Assembly: GCA_001797815.1 (NCBI GenBank)
Contig: MGQK01000071.1
Coordinates: forward strand, 55,904 to 65,649
Reading direction: 5' to 3'
Source of the DNA: Deltaproteobacteria bacterium RBG_13_61_14
GTDB taxonomy: Bacteria; RBG-13-61-14
DNA length: 9,746 bases
Shown piece after piece: positions 1,698 through 9,746 of the stretch (position 1 is its first letter; each line of letters starts with the position of its first letter). The translations under genes and the position numbers were made by a program. The notes under the pieces were generated by a model. The model was not told the origin of the DNA, did no database searches, and worked only from the letters and a program-made list of their open reading frames with translations.

Positions 1698-2687
1698 TTA
1701 GGGTTTCACGGCTCGAAGCTGGACCAGGGTTTCAAACACGTTCCGGGCGACTATCGCATATCCCGGTCCGGCCAGATGGGTTTCCCCGGAATCGGCCAGG
1801 AAGAGCCGGTCGTGCGCGGCCTGATCCATGCTTCCGTCCGGCCTCATAAACCGCGGCCAGATGGCCGCGTCGTTATCCACCAGGGGCACTCCCAGGGACT
1901 TGGCCATCGTCCTCAGAACGTCATTGGCCCCTCCCATCGGCGAAAAGGGCTGGCCGGCATAAGTCATCAGGATCGGCAAGGCCCTGACCGACTCCGCCAT
2001 CTCCACCATCGCGGCAAGATCGCGGCGGGAACGATCGAGCATGCGGTCAAGCTCATTCCACGGTCCCTTCCATTTCCATTGCTCTCGATGGAAATAAACC
2101 TTTCCCTCTCGGTCTTCCACGCGCTCTAACGGCTTCAAGCGCCGGCCGGTCTCGTTCCACAGGTAGGTGAGCAGTCGCACGGTCCGCAAATTTCCCACCA
2201 GGCCGAACCACAGGCGTCGCGGCCAGGAACGGATCCCGGGTTGCAGCACTCCGTCCTGGAGATCGCTCCAGATGATATCGGCTCGGTTCCAACCGTTATT
2301 CGAGCAACTCAGGATCACCACGGCCACCGGCCGATAACGGACCAAAAGCTCTGGCAAGCGCCGGCGCAACTCCGAGGTGTTTTCCCCCGGGACACCGGCA
2401 TTGACCACGTTGACGACTATTCCTTGATGATCGAAAAGCGATTGAAGCTGTCCCGGATACGATTGCTCCGCCGGAAGTTTCACGCCGTAAGTATGGGAGT
2501 CGCCCACGCAAAGGATAACCGGTGTGCCGGGGTGGGGAAGCTCAGAAGCGGGTTCCATGGCCGCATGAATCCAGTGTGCCCCTTGCAGAGCCAGCTCCAG
2601 CACCAGGCAGGAAAAAACAATGAATAGGAGTCCTTTGATTATGAAATGAACGACCTTCATCGCTAGTTTAAATTTTTTCAATTTCAT
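1698..2687 (-). CDS. Membrane-anchored SGNH/GDSL-type hydrolase
   Basis: A protein of about 329 aa with a basic N-terminus, one membrane helix (about residues 13-35) and an SGNH-hydrolase domain, probably facing the periplasm. Block I is VGDSH (Ser64 as likely nucleophile) and block II is NAGVPGENTSE, carrying the oxyanion glycine. Block III appears as SNN (129-131). The C-terminal DSGETHLAGPGY supplies the catalytic His (about residue 304), although the usual DxxH spacing is altered. Family members are esterases or acyl transfer/removal enzymes acting on glycans or lipids; the substrate here is unknown. The pairing with a GT39-like protein 21 nt downstream suggests envelope glycan modification. 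The start is uncertain. TTG at 2702, ATG at 2687 and ATG at 2660 are all in frame and none has a good ribosome site. If the TATAAT at 2686-2691 is a real promoter, the ATG at 2660 is the true start. Confidence 0.8.
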   Translation of the reverse strand: MKLKKFKLAMKVVHFIIKGLLFIVFSCLVLELALQGAHWIHAAMEPASELPHPGTPVILCVGDSHTYGVKLPAEQSYPGQLQSLFDHQGIVVNVVNAGVPGENTSELRRRLPELLVRYRPVAVVILSCSNNGWNRADIIWSDLQDGVLQPGIRSWPRRLWFGLVGNLRTVRLLTYLWNETGRRLKPLERVEDREGKVYFHREQWKWKGPWNELDRMLDRSRRDLAAMVEMAESVRALPILMTYAGQPFSPMGGANDVLRTMAKSLGVPLVDNDAAIWPRFMRPDGSMDQAAHDRLFLADSGETHLAGPGYAIVARNVFETLVQLRAVKP

Positions 2688-2714
2688 TATAGCCCAAAAC
2701 AAAATTTTTCTAAA
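2686..2714 (-). promoter_or_regulatory. Candidate sigma70 promoter for the SGNH hydrolase/GT39 operon
   Basis: On the minus strand a perfect -10 hexamer TATAAT (2691-2686) is preceded, after 17 nt, by TTTAGA (2714-2709), which matches the -35 consensus at 4 of 6 positions. It lies in the most AT-rich stretch of the window, at the head of a leftward gene pair. Transcription would begin near 2679 and leave the ATG at 2660 as the first usable start. The AT-rich background makes a chance match possible. Confidence 0.42.
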
Positions 2715-2761
2715 AGGGAAGAATTAACTTCAGGAGATAGGACCATGTTCCGCTCGGTTAA

Positions 2762-3238
2762 TCCGACGAGTTTCAGGCCCGGAATTATTGCCGATGGAAG
2801 GGCGGACAATTACCCCCCGAAGCGGAATGGGAATGGGCGGCCCGCGGCCCGGAGGCCCGGATTTGGCCGTGGGGCGACCAATTCGAATGCAGCCGCGTGT
2901 GCGGATCGGTCCGGCCCTGCCGGAGTTACAGCACCTGTCCCGTCGGGTCCCATCCCTCCGGCCGGAGCCGGCGGGGAATCGAAGACCTGGCCGGGAACGC
3001 CAGGGAGTGGGTGGCAGAACGCTATGCGCCTTATGGATCGGACGACGCCGGGGTCCTGCTCACGCCCGGCCAGGAAGAAGCGCAACCCAAGGTGATTCGA
3101 GGAGGTTCCTGGCAGGAATCCGAGCCTTATTCTTTGCGCGCTTCCGAGCGCAGTTCCGCCTATCCGGGCCAAGCTTATTGGAATGTCGGATTTCGTTGCG
3201 CCCAATCCATCCCGGAGGGAACCAAGAAGAAAAACTAG
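2762..3238 (+). pseudogene. Truncated FGE-sulfatase (SUMF1/C-type-lectin fold) domain protein, remnant
   Basis: One uninterrupted plus-strand frame of 158 codons reads as the C-terminal two thirds of an FGE-sulfatase domain. It has QARNYCRWKGGQLPPEAEWE, then WAARG and WPWG, DLAGNAREWV in the middle, and VIRGGSW with the closing NVGFRCA, ending at TAG 3236-3238. The N-terminal part of the domain (normally about 200-250 aa in all) is missing. The frame is closed upstream by TAA at 2759-2761 and TAG at 2738-2740, and no ATG lies at its head. The first usable start is an internal GTG at 2897. The two active-site cysteines of true formylglycine-generating enzymes after GGSW are replaced by Glu and Ser, so even the intact parent was probably not a sulfatase activator. 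It is the only plus-strand gene here and ends 17 nt before a duplicated permease fragment. Most likely a dead fragment left by a rearrangement. Confidence 0.7.
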
Positions 3239-3254
3239 GTTAACGAAACTCCCA

Positions 3255-3375
3255 ATGCGGCCGGTGAGGTCGTAGATGGCCTTGGTGATCGGGTAGAAGC
3301 GCTCCTGCATGGCCAGGATCAGGCTGTCCGAGACCTCGAGCATGGAGAGCGCGAAGCAGAGGATGGCGGCCGCGG
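3255..3375 (-). repeat. Duplicated 121-bp fragment of the ABC permease gene
   Basis: This stretch matches 4268-4388 in direct orientation, offset 1013 bp, at 120 of 121 positions. The only difference is C at 3350 against G at 4363. On the minus strand it encodes permease residues about 480-519 (the part containing MLEVSDSLIL and TGRI), and the mismatch is synonymous (Ala GCG here, GCC in the full gene). Both ends break abruptly, with unrelated sequence before 3255 and after 3375. It carries no complete gene. Confidence 0.97.
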
Positions 3376-3380
3376 AAGGG

Positions 3381-3413
3381 AAATAGGGGTCAGATCATTA
3401 ATTAGTCAATTAA
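3381..3413. other. Possible transposon-end or REP-type relic
   Basis: Just past the duplicated fragment is AAATAGGGGTCAGATC (3381-3396), followed by an AT-rich inverted repeat TTAATT-AGTC-AATTAA (3398-3413). GGGGTCAGA-type motifs recur at ends of REP/IS200-like elements in many bacterial genomes, as far as I recall. No transposase gene is present, so this is at most a scar. The resemblance is from memory and has not been searched. Confidence 0.3.
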
Positions 3414-3432
3414 GGAAGTGGCCTGGCATCAA

Positions 3433-3458
3433 AGCCTGACGCACAGGCTAGATTTTTT
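3433..3458 (+). terminator. Terminator-like hairpin with T-tract
   Basis: A 6-bp perfect stem AGCCTG/CAGGCT (3433-3438 and 3444-3449) with a 5-nt loop ACGCA is followed on the plus strand by AGA and then six T (3453-3458). The stem is short and the T run starts 3 nt late, so strength is doubtful. It lies between the plus-strand FGE remnant and the minus-strand protease and could stop rightward transcription. Confidence 0.4.
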
Positions 3459-3478
3459 CCAGGCGGATAGTTTCGGTA

Positions 3479-3838
3479 TCATGAATGGATAGAGAGGTTG
3501 AAATGCTCAAGGAAGTTAAGCCCAAGGATACCGTCGAGCCCGAGGCGGGGCGGGAGGGGATGGCAGATGGCTCTGACATTTTCCACGGCCAATCCGAGGA
3601 TGGAGACCCGCCGCAGTTGCACCTCAACTGCCCAGGCTGAACCCGCAACTCCGAACAACTCAACATTCGGTTCCAGTCTCGCAAGCTCGATCCCCACTTC
3701 CTCGGCCAGGCGCGGGGCAATGACCGTAACTCGCGCGCCGGTATCAATCGCCATCGCGGGGCGGATTTCAAATTCATGCTCGATCATAACTGACGGGATG
3801 ATCAGGTGGCCGCGCTGAAATCGAAAGGTTACATTCAC
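3479..3838 (-). CDS. Clan AA retropepsin-like aspartic protease, 3' end frameshifted
   Basis: A 119-aa protein of the small, single-lobed bacterial retropepsin-like type, which would act as a homodimer. The catalytic motif is DTGA (residues 32-35), preceded by a hydrophobic strand. The second conserved element, LDGILGLNFL (101-110), is the C-terminal hydrophobic-hydrophobic-Gly motif of the clan. Substrate is unknown. The GTG start at 3838 overlaps the stop of the upstream 78-aa gene as GTGA, so translation is coupled. The frame stops at TGA 3481-3479 right after NLSIHS. The neighbouring frame continues IHDTETIRLEKI to TAG at 3450-3448, which is the sort of ending expected for this family (a strand ending in xIRLE). 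One extra base, or a TCAT tandem copy, in CATTCAT (3487-3481) would explain the break. The core is intact, so the protein may still fold, but the last strand of the dimer interface may be lost. Confidence 0.8.
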   Translation of the reverse strand: MNVTFRFQRGHLIIPSVMIEHEFEIRPAMAIDTGARVTVIAPRLAEEVGIELARLEPNVELFGVAGSAWAVEVQLRRVSILGLAVENVRAICHPLPPRLGLDGILGLNFLEHFNLSIHS

Positions 3839-4071
3839 AGAACTACAACCATATCGGGCGGGATGGGATCTCCGGTGAAAGCGATCAGGAGAGAACGCTC
3901 GCGTGAACGCTTGACCATCGCCACCTGGTGCAACTCCTCCCGGCTCTTGCCGTGGAAGAGCAGGCGGCCCTGGGTGGGACGATCCAGCTCGTCGGTTTCC
4001 AGCACCTCAAACAGGAGCCATTCATCCGGATATTGGGCTTGGGTCGCCTCGATATCAACGGTTTCGGACAT
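3835..4071 (-). CDS. Small conserved protein paired with a retropepsin-like protease
   Basis: A 78-aa soluble protein with no signal peptide or membrane helix, charged and with a central YPDEWLLFEVLETDEL (residues 14-29) followed by RLLFHGKSREEL and the end PPDMVVVL. Short proteins with a YPDEW-like core are, as I recall, often encoded directly upstream of bacterial retropepsin-like genes; no function is established. Here its TGA overlaps the GTG of the protease by 4 nt, so the two are translated as a pair. ATG at 4071 is chosen because GGAG lies 6 nt upstream (4081-4078). An in-frame ATG at 4083 and a TTG at 4125 are less likely, since a good promoter at 4088-4116 would put the transcript start near 4083. 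Function unknown; a partner or substrate of the protease is possible, but this is inference. Confidence 0.75.
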   Translation of the reverse strand: MSETVDIEATQAQYPDEWLLFEVLETDELDRPTQGRLLFHGKSREELHQVAMVKRSRERSLLIAFTGDPIPPDMVVVL

Positions 4072-4087
4072 TCGCTTCTCCATTACC

Positions 4088-4116
4088 AATATAAAATTCC
4101 TCTCCGGCGAAGTCAA
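4088..4116 (-). promoter_or_regulatory. Sigma70-type promoter for the small protein/protease pair
   Basis: On the minus strand TTGACT (4116-4111, 5 of 6 to consensus) and TATATT (4093-4088, 5 of 6) are separated by exactly 17 nt. The site lies in the 72-nt gap after the permease stop. Transcription would start near 4083, only about 12 nt ahead of the ATG at 4071, with GGAG in between. It suggests the pair is transcribed independently of the importer operon. Confidence 0.6.
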
Positions 4117-4143
4117 CTGGAACAACCGTTGTAAACCCTTGTT

Positions 4144-5823
4144 TCACCCGATCCGGAACATTTCGCCCAGTCGCCGGCCGAGGGCGGCGCCGGCGAAGAG
4201 GAAGCCGGCGAAGAGGAGGATCATGCCGAGCACGCCCAGGGCCGAGGCATAGGGGACGCCTTCGGTGATGCGGCCGGTGAGGTCGTAGATGGCCTTGGTG
4301 ATCGGGTAGAAGCGCTCCTGCATGGCCAGGATCAGGCTGTCCGAGACCTCGAGCATGGAGAGGGCGAAGCAGAGGATGGCGGCCGCGGTGAGGTGGCCGG
4401 AGGCGAGCCGCAGGGTGATCCGCCGGAGCGTGGTCAAGGGCCGGGCGCCGAGATTGGCCGAGGCTTCTTCCAGGGCCACCGGGATCTGCTGGATCCCGGC
4501 ATAGGCGGCGCGCACGGCGAAGGGGAGCCTCCGGATGGCGTAGGCGATGGCCAGGAGCGGCAGCGGGTTGACCCGGGGGTTGAGCGGGGTATTGGAAAAG
4601 GCGGCCACGTAACCGAAGGCCAGGACCAGGCCCGGCACGGCGAGCGGGAGCATGGCCACGAGGTCCAAGAACTCCTGGCCGCGGAAACGGCGGCGGACCA
4701 GGAGGTAGGCGAGGCCGAAGCCGAGGACCAGGTCTGCGGCTGCGGCGATGCCGGAGAGGAAGAGGCTGTTGCGGATGCTGGTCAGGGTCAGGGGGTGGCT
4801 GAAGATGCCGAGGAGGTAGCGGCCGGTGAACTCTTCGGGCAGCACCGAGAAAAACCATTGCTTGGAGATGGCGAGCAGAAGAACCCCGAGATGGGGCAGG
4901 AGCGCGAAGGCGGTGAGCGAGAGCGCGCCGGTCCAGAGCAGGAGGCGGGCGAGCGCACTTGGCGGCGGCCGGTCCGCGGCCATGACGCGGCCGGCGCCGG
5001 TGTAACGGCCGGAGGCCAGGGCGCTGCGTCCGGCCCAGAAGAGGATGGCGCTGAGGAGCAGGACCAGGACCACCAGGGCATAGCCGGTGGGGTTGGTGCG
5101 GAGGTCGAGGACCGCGCTGAAGATTTGGACCGGGGCCACTTCGCGGAACTCGAACATCAGCGGGGTGCCCAGGTCGGTGAAGGACCAGATAAAGACGATG
5201 CTGGCGCCGGCGAAGACGCCGGGCATGGCCAGGGGCAGGGTGACGGTGCGGAAGACGCGGAAGCGGCCGGCGCCGAGGTTCAAGCCGGCCTCTTCCAGGC
5301 TGGGGTCCACTTGCGCGAGCGAGGCGGCGAGGTTGAGGACCATGATCGGGTAGAGGTGGAGCACCTCCAGGATCACCACGGCCCAGAAGCCCTGGCCGAA
5401 CCAGTCAAGCGGCGTTTCGATCCAGCCGTGCTGGAGCAGGAGCAGGTTGAGGCTGCCGAAGCGGGCGAAGATCTGCTTCATGCCCAGGGCGCCGACAAAG
5501 GGGGGCAGGATCATGGGCGCGAGCAGCAGCGACTGGAGGATGGCTCGGCCGGAAAAATTCCAGCGGCCGAGCGCCGCGGCCAGGGGGAGCGAGATGAGGA
5601 AGGTGAGGATGGTCGCGAGGCCGGCCAGGTTGAGGCTGTTGAGGATGGATTGGCGGAGCGTCGGGTTCTGGAAAAGGATGGCGAAGAAGGCGAGGGAGAG
5701 TTTGCCTTCGGGCAGGATCGCCTCCCGGAACACGTAGAGCAAGGGATAAACCAGGAAGGCGAGGAGGCAGAGCGCGAGCAGGGCCAGGAGAGCGAAGGAG
5801 GCGCGGGAGTTCGAACCCAGCAT
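4144..5823 (-). CDS. ABC importer permease, fused two-domain, Fe3+ (Fbp/Afu) type
   Basis: A 559-aa inner-membrane permease made of two fused binding-protein-dependent transport domains, with about 12 hydrophobic segments. Each half carries an EAA loop that docks on the ATPase: EEAGLNLGAGRFRVFRT (177-193) and EEASANLGARPLTTLRR (452-468). This length and duplicated layout are typical of FbpB/AfuB ferric permeases and the related ThiP and putrescine-type proteins. The gene starts at ATG 5823, 3 nt after the ATPase stop, with only a weak GGA ahead of it, so translational coupling is likely. It is the last gene of the operon binding protein-ATPase-permease. A 121-bp piece covering residues about 480-519 is duplicated 1 kb further on. 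The codons are strongly G/C-ending, more so than in the genes to the left. Family is sure; iron as substrate is inference from domain layout. Confidence 0.9.
   Translation of the reverse strand: MLGSNSRASFALLALLALCLLAFLVYPLLYVFREAILPEGKLSLAFFAILFQNPTLRQSILNSLNLAGLATILTFLISLPLAAALGRWNFSGRAILQSLLLAPMILPPFVGALGMKQIFARFGSLNLLLLQHGWIETPLDWFGQGFWAVVILEVLHLYPIMVLNLAASLAQVDPSLEEAGLNLGAGRFRVFRTVTLPLAMPGVFAGASIVFIWSFTDLGTPLMFEFREVAPVQIFSAVLDLRTNPTGYALVVLVLLLSAILFWAGRSALASGRYTGAGRVMAADRPPPSALARLLLWTGALSLTAFALLPHLGVLLLAISKQWFFSVLPEEFTGRYLLGIFSHPLTLTSIRNSLFLSGIAAAADLVLGFGLAYLLVRRRFRGQEFLDLVAMLPLAVPGLVLAFGYVAAFSNTPLNPRVNPLPLLAIAYAIRRLPFAVRAAYAGIQQIPVALEEASANLGARPLTTLRRITLRLASGHLTAAAILCFALSMLEVSDSLILAMQERFYPITKAIYDLTGRITEGVPYASALGVLGMILLFAGFLFAGAALGRRLGEMFRIG
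4268..4388 (-). repeat. Source copy of the 121-bp duplicated segment, inside the permease gene
   Basis: This is the counterpart of 3255-3375, in the same orientation and 120/121 identical. It lies fully inside the second domain of the permease, just after the second EAA loop. Because the reading frame is intact here, this is the parental copy. Confidence 0.97.
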
Positions 5824-8494: not shown

Positions 8495-9746
8495 TCAGGC
8501 GACCTTGGGCAGCTTTTTCAGCGCTTCCTTGATCGCTTCTTCCGGGTGCTCGTAGTCCTGGAGCTTGCCGGTGAGGTAGTCATCGTAAGCGGCGAGGTCG
8601 AAGTGGCCGTGGCCCGAGCAATTGAACAGGATCACCCGTTTCTTGCCTTCCTCCTTGGCCTTCTTGGCCTCGTCAATCACCGCCTGCACCGCATGCGCGG
8701 TTTCCGGCGCGATCAGGTGACCCTCGGTCCGGGCGAAGAGCATGGCCGCATCGAACACCGCCTTCTGGCCGTAAGCCACGGCTTCGATCATCTTTTCTTT
8801 GACCAGTTGCGAGATGATCGGCGCATCGCCGTGGTAACGAAGCCCGCCGGCGTGGATGCCGGAGGGGATGAAATCGTGGCCCAGGGTGTACATCTTGGCC
8901 ACCGGCGCGAGGCCCGCGGTGTCGCCGTAGTCGTAAGCGTAAATCCCCTTGGTCAGGGTGGGACAGGCCGTGGGTTCCACCGCCACCGCCCGCAAGTTTT
9001 TGCCCGCGAACTTGTCGGCGATAAAGGGCAGGCAGGTGCCGCCGAAGTTGGACCCGCCGCCGCAGCAGCCGATGACCACATCCGGGTAATCGCCGGCTTT
9101 CTTGAGCTGCTCCTTGGCCTCCAGCCCGATCACGGTCTGGTGCAGGAGCACGTGGTTGAGCACCGAGCCCAGGGAGTAGTGGGCGTCGTCGTGAGTGGCC
9201 GCGTCAAAGACCGCCTCGCTGATGGCTATCCCTAAGCTGCCCGGGCTTTTCGGGTCCTTGGCCAGGATGGCCTGGCCCTGGGGCGTCTTGTCGCTGGGGC
9301 TGGCGAACACCTCGCCGCCCCAGGTCTCCATCATGATCCGGCGGTAGGGCTTCTGGTTGTAGCTGACCTTGACCATATACACGGTGACCTTGAGCCCGAA
9401 GAGCTTGCCGGCAAAGCAAAGCGCCGAGCCCCACTGGCCGGCCCCGGTCTCGGTGCACAGCCGCTTGATGCCCTCTTTCTTGTTGTAATAAGCCTGGGCC
9501 ACCGCGGTGTTGGGCTTGTGCGAGCCGGGCGGGCTGACCCCTTCCCACTTGTAGTAAATTTTCGCCGGGGTGCCCAGCGCTTTTTCCAGGCGATGGGCGC
9601 GGTAGAGCGGGGTCGGCCGCCACATGGTGTAAATGTCCAGCACCTCCTGGGGAATATCAATCCAGCGCTCTTGGCTGACTTCCTGCTCGATCAGGCCCAT
9701 GGGAAAAAGCGGGGCCAGGTCCTGCGGCCCGATCGGCTTTAGGGTC
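8495..9746 (-). CDS. trpB: Tryptophan synthase beta chain, TrpB2 type (5' end off the window)
   Basis: A pyridoxal-phosphate enzyme joining indole and L-serine to give L-tryptophan in the cytoplasm. The frame runs to the right edge, and residues before the ATG at 9700 ([13 protein letters not shown]) fit the conserved TrpB2 N-terminus, so the true start is beyond 9746. Counting from 9700: the PLP lysine is K62 in GSHKPNTA, the catalytic Glu is E84 in TETGAGQWG, and the phosphate loop is GGGSN (214-218). Trp instead of His after GAGQ, and RWIDIPQEV near the start, are hallmarks of the TrpB2 subfamily rather than classical TrpB. TrpB2 proteins do not partner TrpA in the usual way and can serve as indole-salvage or serine-dehydrating enzymes. 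No trpA or other trp gene is visible, and a terminator follows the stop at once, so this gene ends its transcript. Stop is TGA at 8497-8495. Confidence 0.93.

Follow-up and report, generated by a model that had tools for sequence, protein, structure and literature searches.

A permease gene slice beside a transposon terminus: probably a recombination scar, one of eight gene-end repeats in a draft bacterial genome

Background

How does a slice of a gene come to stand, almost unchanged, about 1 kb away from the gene itself? The question is raised by the window, a stretch of 9,746 nucleotides from Deltaproteobacteria bacterium RBG_13_61_14 (C71:55904-65649), in which part of a permease gene occurs twice in the same orientation. 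Its draft genome consists of 132 scaffolded contigs, 4.74 Mb in all, with no close relatives in the searched set. The original prediction read the second copy as a recent, non-tandem duplication or a template switch, with assembly error as the main alternative. We find that the duplication is probably real, and probably an ordinary recombination scar.

The duplicated segment

Positions 3255-3375 and 4268-4388 of the window form a direct repeat of 121 bp, of which 120 are identical, at a spacing of 1013 bp. The longest exact run is 95 bp, against at most 16 bp in first-order Markov shuffles of the window, and the whole draft genome contains exactly two copies of the segment. The sole mismatch, C at position 3350 versus G at position 4363, opposes GCG to GCC, both alanine in the permease frame; this synonymous change, alone, is uninformative, since 26% is expected. 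The edges of the repeat are sharp: on both sides, the flanking bases agree only at about chance level. On these points the measurements agree with the original prediction.

The resident copy (4268..4388, minus strand) covers codons 479-519 of an intact ABC-transporter permease of 559 amino acids (4144..5823, minus strand; Pfam BPD_transp_1, E = 7.6e-27), for which the nearest NCBIfam model is PhnU2, with a score under its cut-off. The segment is internal to the gene, as had been claimed, yet belongs to its 3' part. The second copy (3255..3375, minus strand) is cut at both edges, neither of which is a natural start or stop of its own, and its permease frame runs open, without a stop, into sequence antisense to the neighbouring gene. 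That gene, of FGE-sulfatase type (2777..3238, plus strand), is a C-terminal fragment whose 5' part is missing, the match covering positions 162-254 of 255 in Pfam FGE-sulfatase; its predicted truncation is therefore borne out. A spacer of 16 bp (3239..3254) separates its stop from the slice, whose distal breakpoint is 3254/3255. An FGE paralogue with a similar truncation is found on contig C72. We also note two FGE-type C-terminal fragments in this one genome, at 2777-3238 in the window and at 2548-3051 in locus L089, both without the N-terminal half and with a near-identical start.

Between the two copies lie the last 124 bp of the permease gene, an open reading frame of 96 amino acids, a retropepsin gene and a transposon terminus. 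The retropepsin gene (3479..3838, minus strand) encodes a retropepsin-like clan AA aspartic protease of 119 amino acids with a DTG motif (Pfam gag-asp_proteas, 2.5e-12; Asp_protease_2, 5.4e-12). The 96-amino-acid frame (3835..4125, minus strand) overlaps the protease start, and family searches assigned it to no family. The retropepsin module was thus correctly placed between the copies, but it shares that interval with the partner frame and the permease C-terminus. As an observation in its own right, the arrangement at 3479-4125, a protease overlapping a family-less frame, has a toxin-antitoxin-like layout, and the pair occupies the same type of site as the BrnT/A and AF2212/PIN pairs of this genome.

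The original prediction also suggested that the two copies could recombine and delete the module. A crossover between them would indeed remove 1013 bp, in which the protease pair, the transposon terminus and some 40 codons at the end of the permease gene are included, and leave a frame of 666 amino acids that reads through sequence antisense to the FGE gene. Because the permease C-terminus is cut off as well, the module would be lost, but not cleanly.

The transposon terminus

A junction of 10 bp, AAGGGAAATA (3376..3385), connects the slice to a solo terminal repeat, GGGGTCAGATCATTAATTAGTCAATTAAGG (3386..3415, plus strand), from a family of Y1-transposase elements, with its GGGG side toward the slice. 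Its first bases, GGGGTCAG at position 3386, match the consensus GGGGWSAS of TIRtrons (Di Nocera et al. 2013, PMC3733652). What the original prediction had called a possible transposon-end motif turns out to be a terminus repeated throughout the genome: at least 10 Y1/RAYT-type transposase elements of about 1.03 kb (1.02-1.05 kb) have inverted ends that open with GGGGTCAG, each with its own 25-bp tail after the motif, and with transposase genes that match Y1_Tnp. Five of these are at L067 8035-9073, L078 8315-9347, L079 10301-11338, L092 785/1807 and L100 980/2029; others of about 1.03 kb are in L090, L093, L094, L098 and L099. The transposase protein of L067 scores 63 bits against NF047646, whose cut-off is 80. 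In 1.53 Mb of sampled sequence, part of it picked for the motif, GGGGTCAG occurs 163 times and the reversed word 38 times. The Y1 elements with GGGGTCAG ends fit the TIRtron class.

The window itself contains no complete TIRtron: there is one terminus near the slice and no transposase frame, and the next inverted match to this terminus, at 9534, is inside a gene. The tail subtype of the solo terminus is also present on contigs C17 and C36. More generally, this one genome holds many parallel TIRtron subfamilies, with at least 10 Y1 elements and numerous matching solo repeats. An internally deleted relic of the retropepsin/96-aa pair is found on contig C99 (L010, about 1785-1990), again beside a GGGGTCAG terminus; its retropepsin part spans about 1797-1966. 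The idea of a cassette fixed to one terminus is unsupported, because the terminus of this relic is of a different subtype from that of the window.

Seven similar scars in the genome

We now ask whether the window is alone. A scan for two-copy local direct repeats, over stretches that total 1.53 Mb, or about a third of the genome, and that were partly chosen for the motif, yields seven more pairs, 48-188 bp long and 90-99% identical. With the window, they form a small class of eight, defined after inspection, that share one plan: a segment from the end of a gene, an insert, and a second copy of the segment. What lies between the copies is a toxin-antitoxin pair, some other gene, or a terminal repeat.

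Two of the repeats enclose toxin-antitoxin pairs: a BrnT/BrnA pair between copies of 57 bp of a DSBA gene (L116), and an AF2212/PIN pair between copies of 71 bp (L109), where both copies are fragment-like and a search for an intact host gene found none. A repeat of 54 bp of a glutamine amidotransferase gene surrounds a terminal-repeat element (L111), one of 131 bp of an ABC ATPase gene surrounds a lipoprotein-like gene (L125), and one of 48 bp of a sulfatase gene surrounds a single gene (L132). Locus L128 has two pairs: 188 bp of the 5' end of a sodium:solute symporter gene around a weak radical-SAM-like gene between terminal repeats (4803/7131), and 79 bp of a pilin-like gene around 65 bp (13501/13644). 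Simple rules of open frame and base composition served to call the genes; "pilin" and "lipoprotein" are labels given by eye, the others coming from domain calls. The gene inserted at the 5' end of the symporter gene deserves a separate mention: it encodes 535 amino acids with weak B12-binding/radical-SAM matches, and is flanked by direct repeats of 71 bp in which the GGGGTCAG terminus is included (L128 4991-7130).

Other repeats were left out of the class as paralogous genes or internal repeats (L078, L081 3781, L119, L147 and L152) or as intergenic repeats (L138 and L128 5040/6854), and L159 13679 is also outside the count. In L147 (19223-20000, contig C107), a direct repeat of 322 bp, 99.4% identical and 135 bp apart, lies inside a single reading frame; it is either a genuine internal duplication or an assembly error.

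In the seven other loci, the remnants preserve the ends of genes. The far copies of L111, L116, both pairs of L128 and L132 run past the match into an in-frame stop or start of their own, while in L125 and L109 both copies end at the same stop; a natural end is thus found in 7/7. In the first five, the end has diverged from that of the host, as one would expect from another allele; examples are NFLALSGA against NFLALSSRAR and MVERHLKTVGSR against MVERFLQGRKA, each followed by a stop, and, at a start, VAPTPIDFF against MALAGIDFF. The GGGGTCAG motif, its outer side toward the remnant, is 1-12 bp from the module-side edge in three of the eight junctions, or in 2/7 when the window is excluded; the probability of three such junctions is about 3e-5, even with a tenfold intergenic enrichment allowed.

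Pooled over the eight scars, the copies differ at 38 positions in which 24 changes are synonymous and 14 are not. This exceeds both the neutral expectation of 0.26 (p = 2e-6) and the 0.41 expected for a constrained gene paired with a neutral copy (p = 0.006). As far as these counts can tell, selection seems to have been acting on both versions during most of their divergence. Because the pooled differences are mostly synonymous, the second copy in the window may derive from another allele, one that had diverged before the event that placed it there. While the duplication in the window is probably genuine, and is non-tandem and adjacent to a transposon terminus, its predicted recent date is consequently not established.

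For comparison, control sequence was sampled as well. A 6.8 Mb single-contig genome contains a comparable gene-end remnant, L197, where KLYAGSWSDWISYEENPVATGEG stands against KLYAGSRSNWISYEENPVATGGE, each followed by a stop; a control pair, L182, was set aside, its flank being made of N. The control sample gives about one clear remnant in 0.8 Mb, fewer than the rate in the genome under study.

Origin of the second copy

The reading that we favour, tentatively and at slightly under even chances, is that the second copy is a scar left by illegitimate recombination on the margin of an acquired module. Incoming DNA, carrying the end of a permease gene and the retropepsin pair, would have landed beside the resident gene. 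One side would have joined through homology within the permease; the other would have formed an illegitimate junction, inside the resident allele, at or near the terminal repeat of a Y1 transposon, where a nick by the transposase, or the structure of the repeat, might offer a weak point. A short piece of the resident allele would then be stranded on the far side of the module, and a second breakpoint, at 3254/3255, would have removed the remainder of the 3' end of that allele. What is observed is the duplication, the terminus and the seven other scars; from them we infer that there was a donor, in what order things happened, that a second break occurred and what part, if any, the transposase had. 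In support, the window shares with the other scars its plan, its kind of module and the terminus at its junction, and the end of a second allele after homology-assisted illegitimate recombination suits the data better than the decay of a fresh duplicate. Against it, the class is small and post hoc, L109 is without an intact host gene, and the slice does not finish at a natural gene end on its distal side, which calls for two breakpoints, just as template switching does.

Template switching is a serious rival, though the less likely origin of the slice. A replication end stalled or broken beside the terminus would have copied 121 bp of permease 1 kb off and switched back, with no donor DNA and the module already in place. 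Such an excursion yields exactly two junctions, in accordance with the two abrupt, gene-internal edges of the slice; its template would be the nearest gene, identity is high (99.2%), and a repeat terminus is just 10 bp away from the slice, while in E. coli repeats of the REP type are template-switch hot spots (PMC3161906). However, the copying of a neighbour does not predict the mostly natural ends and the synonymous-biased divergence of the seven other cases. A mixture of strains could mimic the whole class, synonymous bias and alternative gene ends included, and assembly error remains, as originally proposed, the main technical worry: in an assembly chimera of two strains, with and without the module, a permease piece from the strain without it would have been joined on behind the module of the other. 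This scaffolded draft has 170 N gaps in the 1.53 Mb sampled, about one per 9 kb, and the contig of the window terminates inside a transposase gene. However, the 60 bp on either side of each of the eight junctions are free of N, the identical runs by the module-side edge vary from a few to tens of base pairs rather than showing a constant k-mer length, and the comparable remnant L197 comes from a single-contig genome. We therefore regard a chimera as unlikely at the window, though, because the control sample gave fewer cases, some of the scars of this genome may still be chimeras.

A transposon that carried the retropepsin pair and duplicated 121 bp of its target on insertion would also leave direct repeats around a segment, with a terminus beside one of them. 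This explanation is very improbable, and we reject it: the resident copy is separated from the module by 124 bp that belong to the native permease C-terminus, so the two copies do not sit right at the ends of one mobile unit; the terminal repeat is single, with no inverted partner nearby in the window; and the repeats measure anything between 48 and 188 bp, depending on the case. Transposition of the IS200/IS605-type Y1 kind is not known to make a target duplication. Least probable of all is a functional slice. Its plus strand is complementary to the permease mRNA, and a transcript from the FGE side could in principle down-regulate the permease; no promoter, conservation or expression supports this, and the other slices differ in position and in gene.

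A direct comparison with a donor or an empty site was sought. Searches of GTDB contigs with the permease and retropepsin proteins found no relatives, and neither an empty site nor a donor; genomes of the same order have no syntenic permease; and similarity to the FGE paralogue on contig C72 stops before the junction, without an empty site.

Known systems and significance

The favoured reading, a scar at the edge of an acquired module, has a precedent in the homology-facilitated, or homology-assisted, illegitimate recombination described in bacteria (PMC2884548 and work cited there). There, as here, one side is homologous and the other illegitimate, and a new segment, small and of variable size, is placed beside a resident gene; that process was demonstrated in naturally competent species and in genome comparisons, whereas our inference is drawn from scars in one draft genome, without donor or empty site. 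No paper on short-patch double illegitimate recombination turned up in the literature searched. TIRtrons, or TIRYT (PMC3733652), share with our elements the Y1/HUH tyrosine transposase genes within inverted repeats headed by GGGGTCAG, and the solo and clustered repeats, but the window has a solo terminus at a recombination junction, not around a transposase gene. REP sequences account for 22 of the 90 novel junctions sequenced in amplified E. coli isolates (Lin et al. 2011, PMC3161906): in both cases, rearrangement junctions are enriched at short transposon-related repeats, though stressed cells gave rise there to amplifications, deletions and inversions on the kilobase scale, and these are short gene-end slices fixed in a genome.

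Prophage e14 in the icd gene offers a different parallel. It is inserted at the 3' end of the gene, a diverged version of which has been displaced to the far side of the prophage, and it has its own integrase and exact att sites. The window resembles it in the insertion at a gene 3' end and in the displaced copy, and differs in having no integrase and no constant core.

Could the transposases play an active part? Y1/HUH transposases with GGGGTCAG termini might help small modules, such as toxin-antitoxin or retropepsin pairs, to become established next to host genes: by nicking the terminus they would provide an end that joins illegitimately in a neighbouring allele, the other side being homologous, and the remnant would be the signature of the event. 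We consider this improbable.

The data suggest that the slice of 121 bp is recombination debris from the arrival of gene pairs, not a special element. Taken alone, the second copy is a small scar; with the seven others that accompany it in about a third of the genome, it gives a simple signature: a gene-end slice, a module, a remnant with its own end and, in some cases, a transposon terminus where the pieces meet. Such signatures are countable in any set of genomes, and could trace the integrase-free entry of toxin-antitoxin and similar modules into chromosomes.
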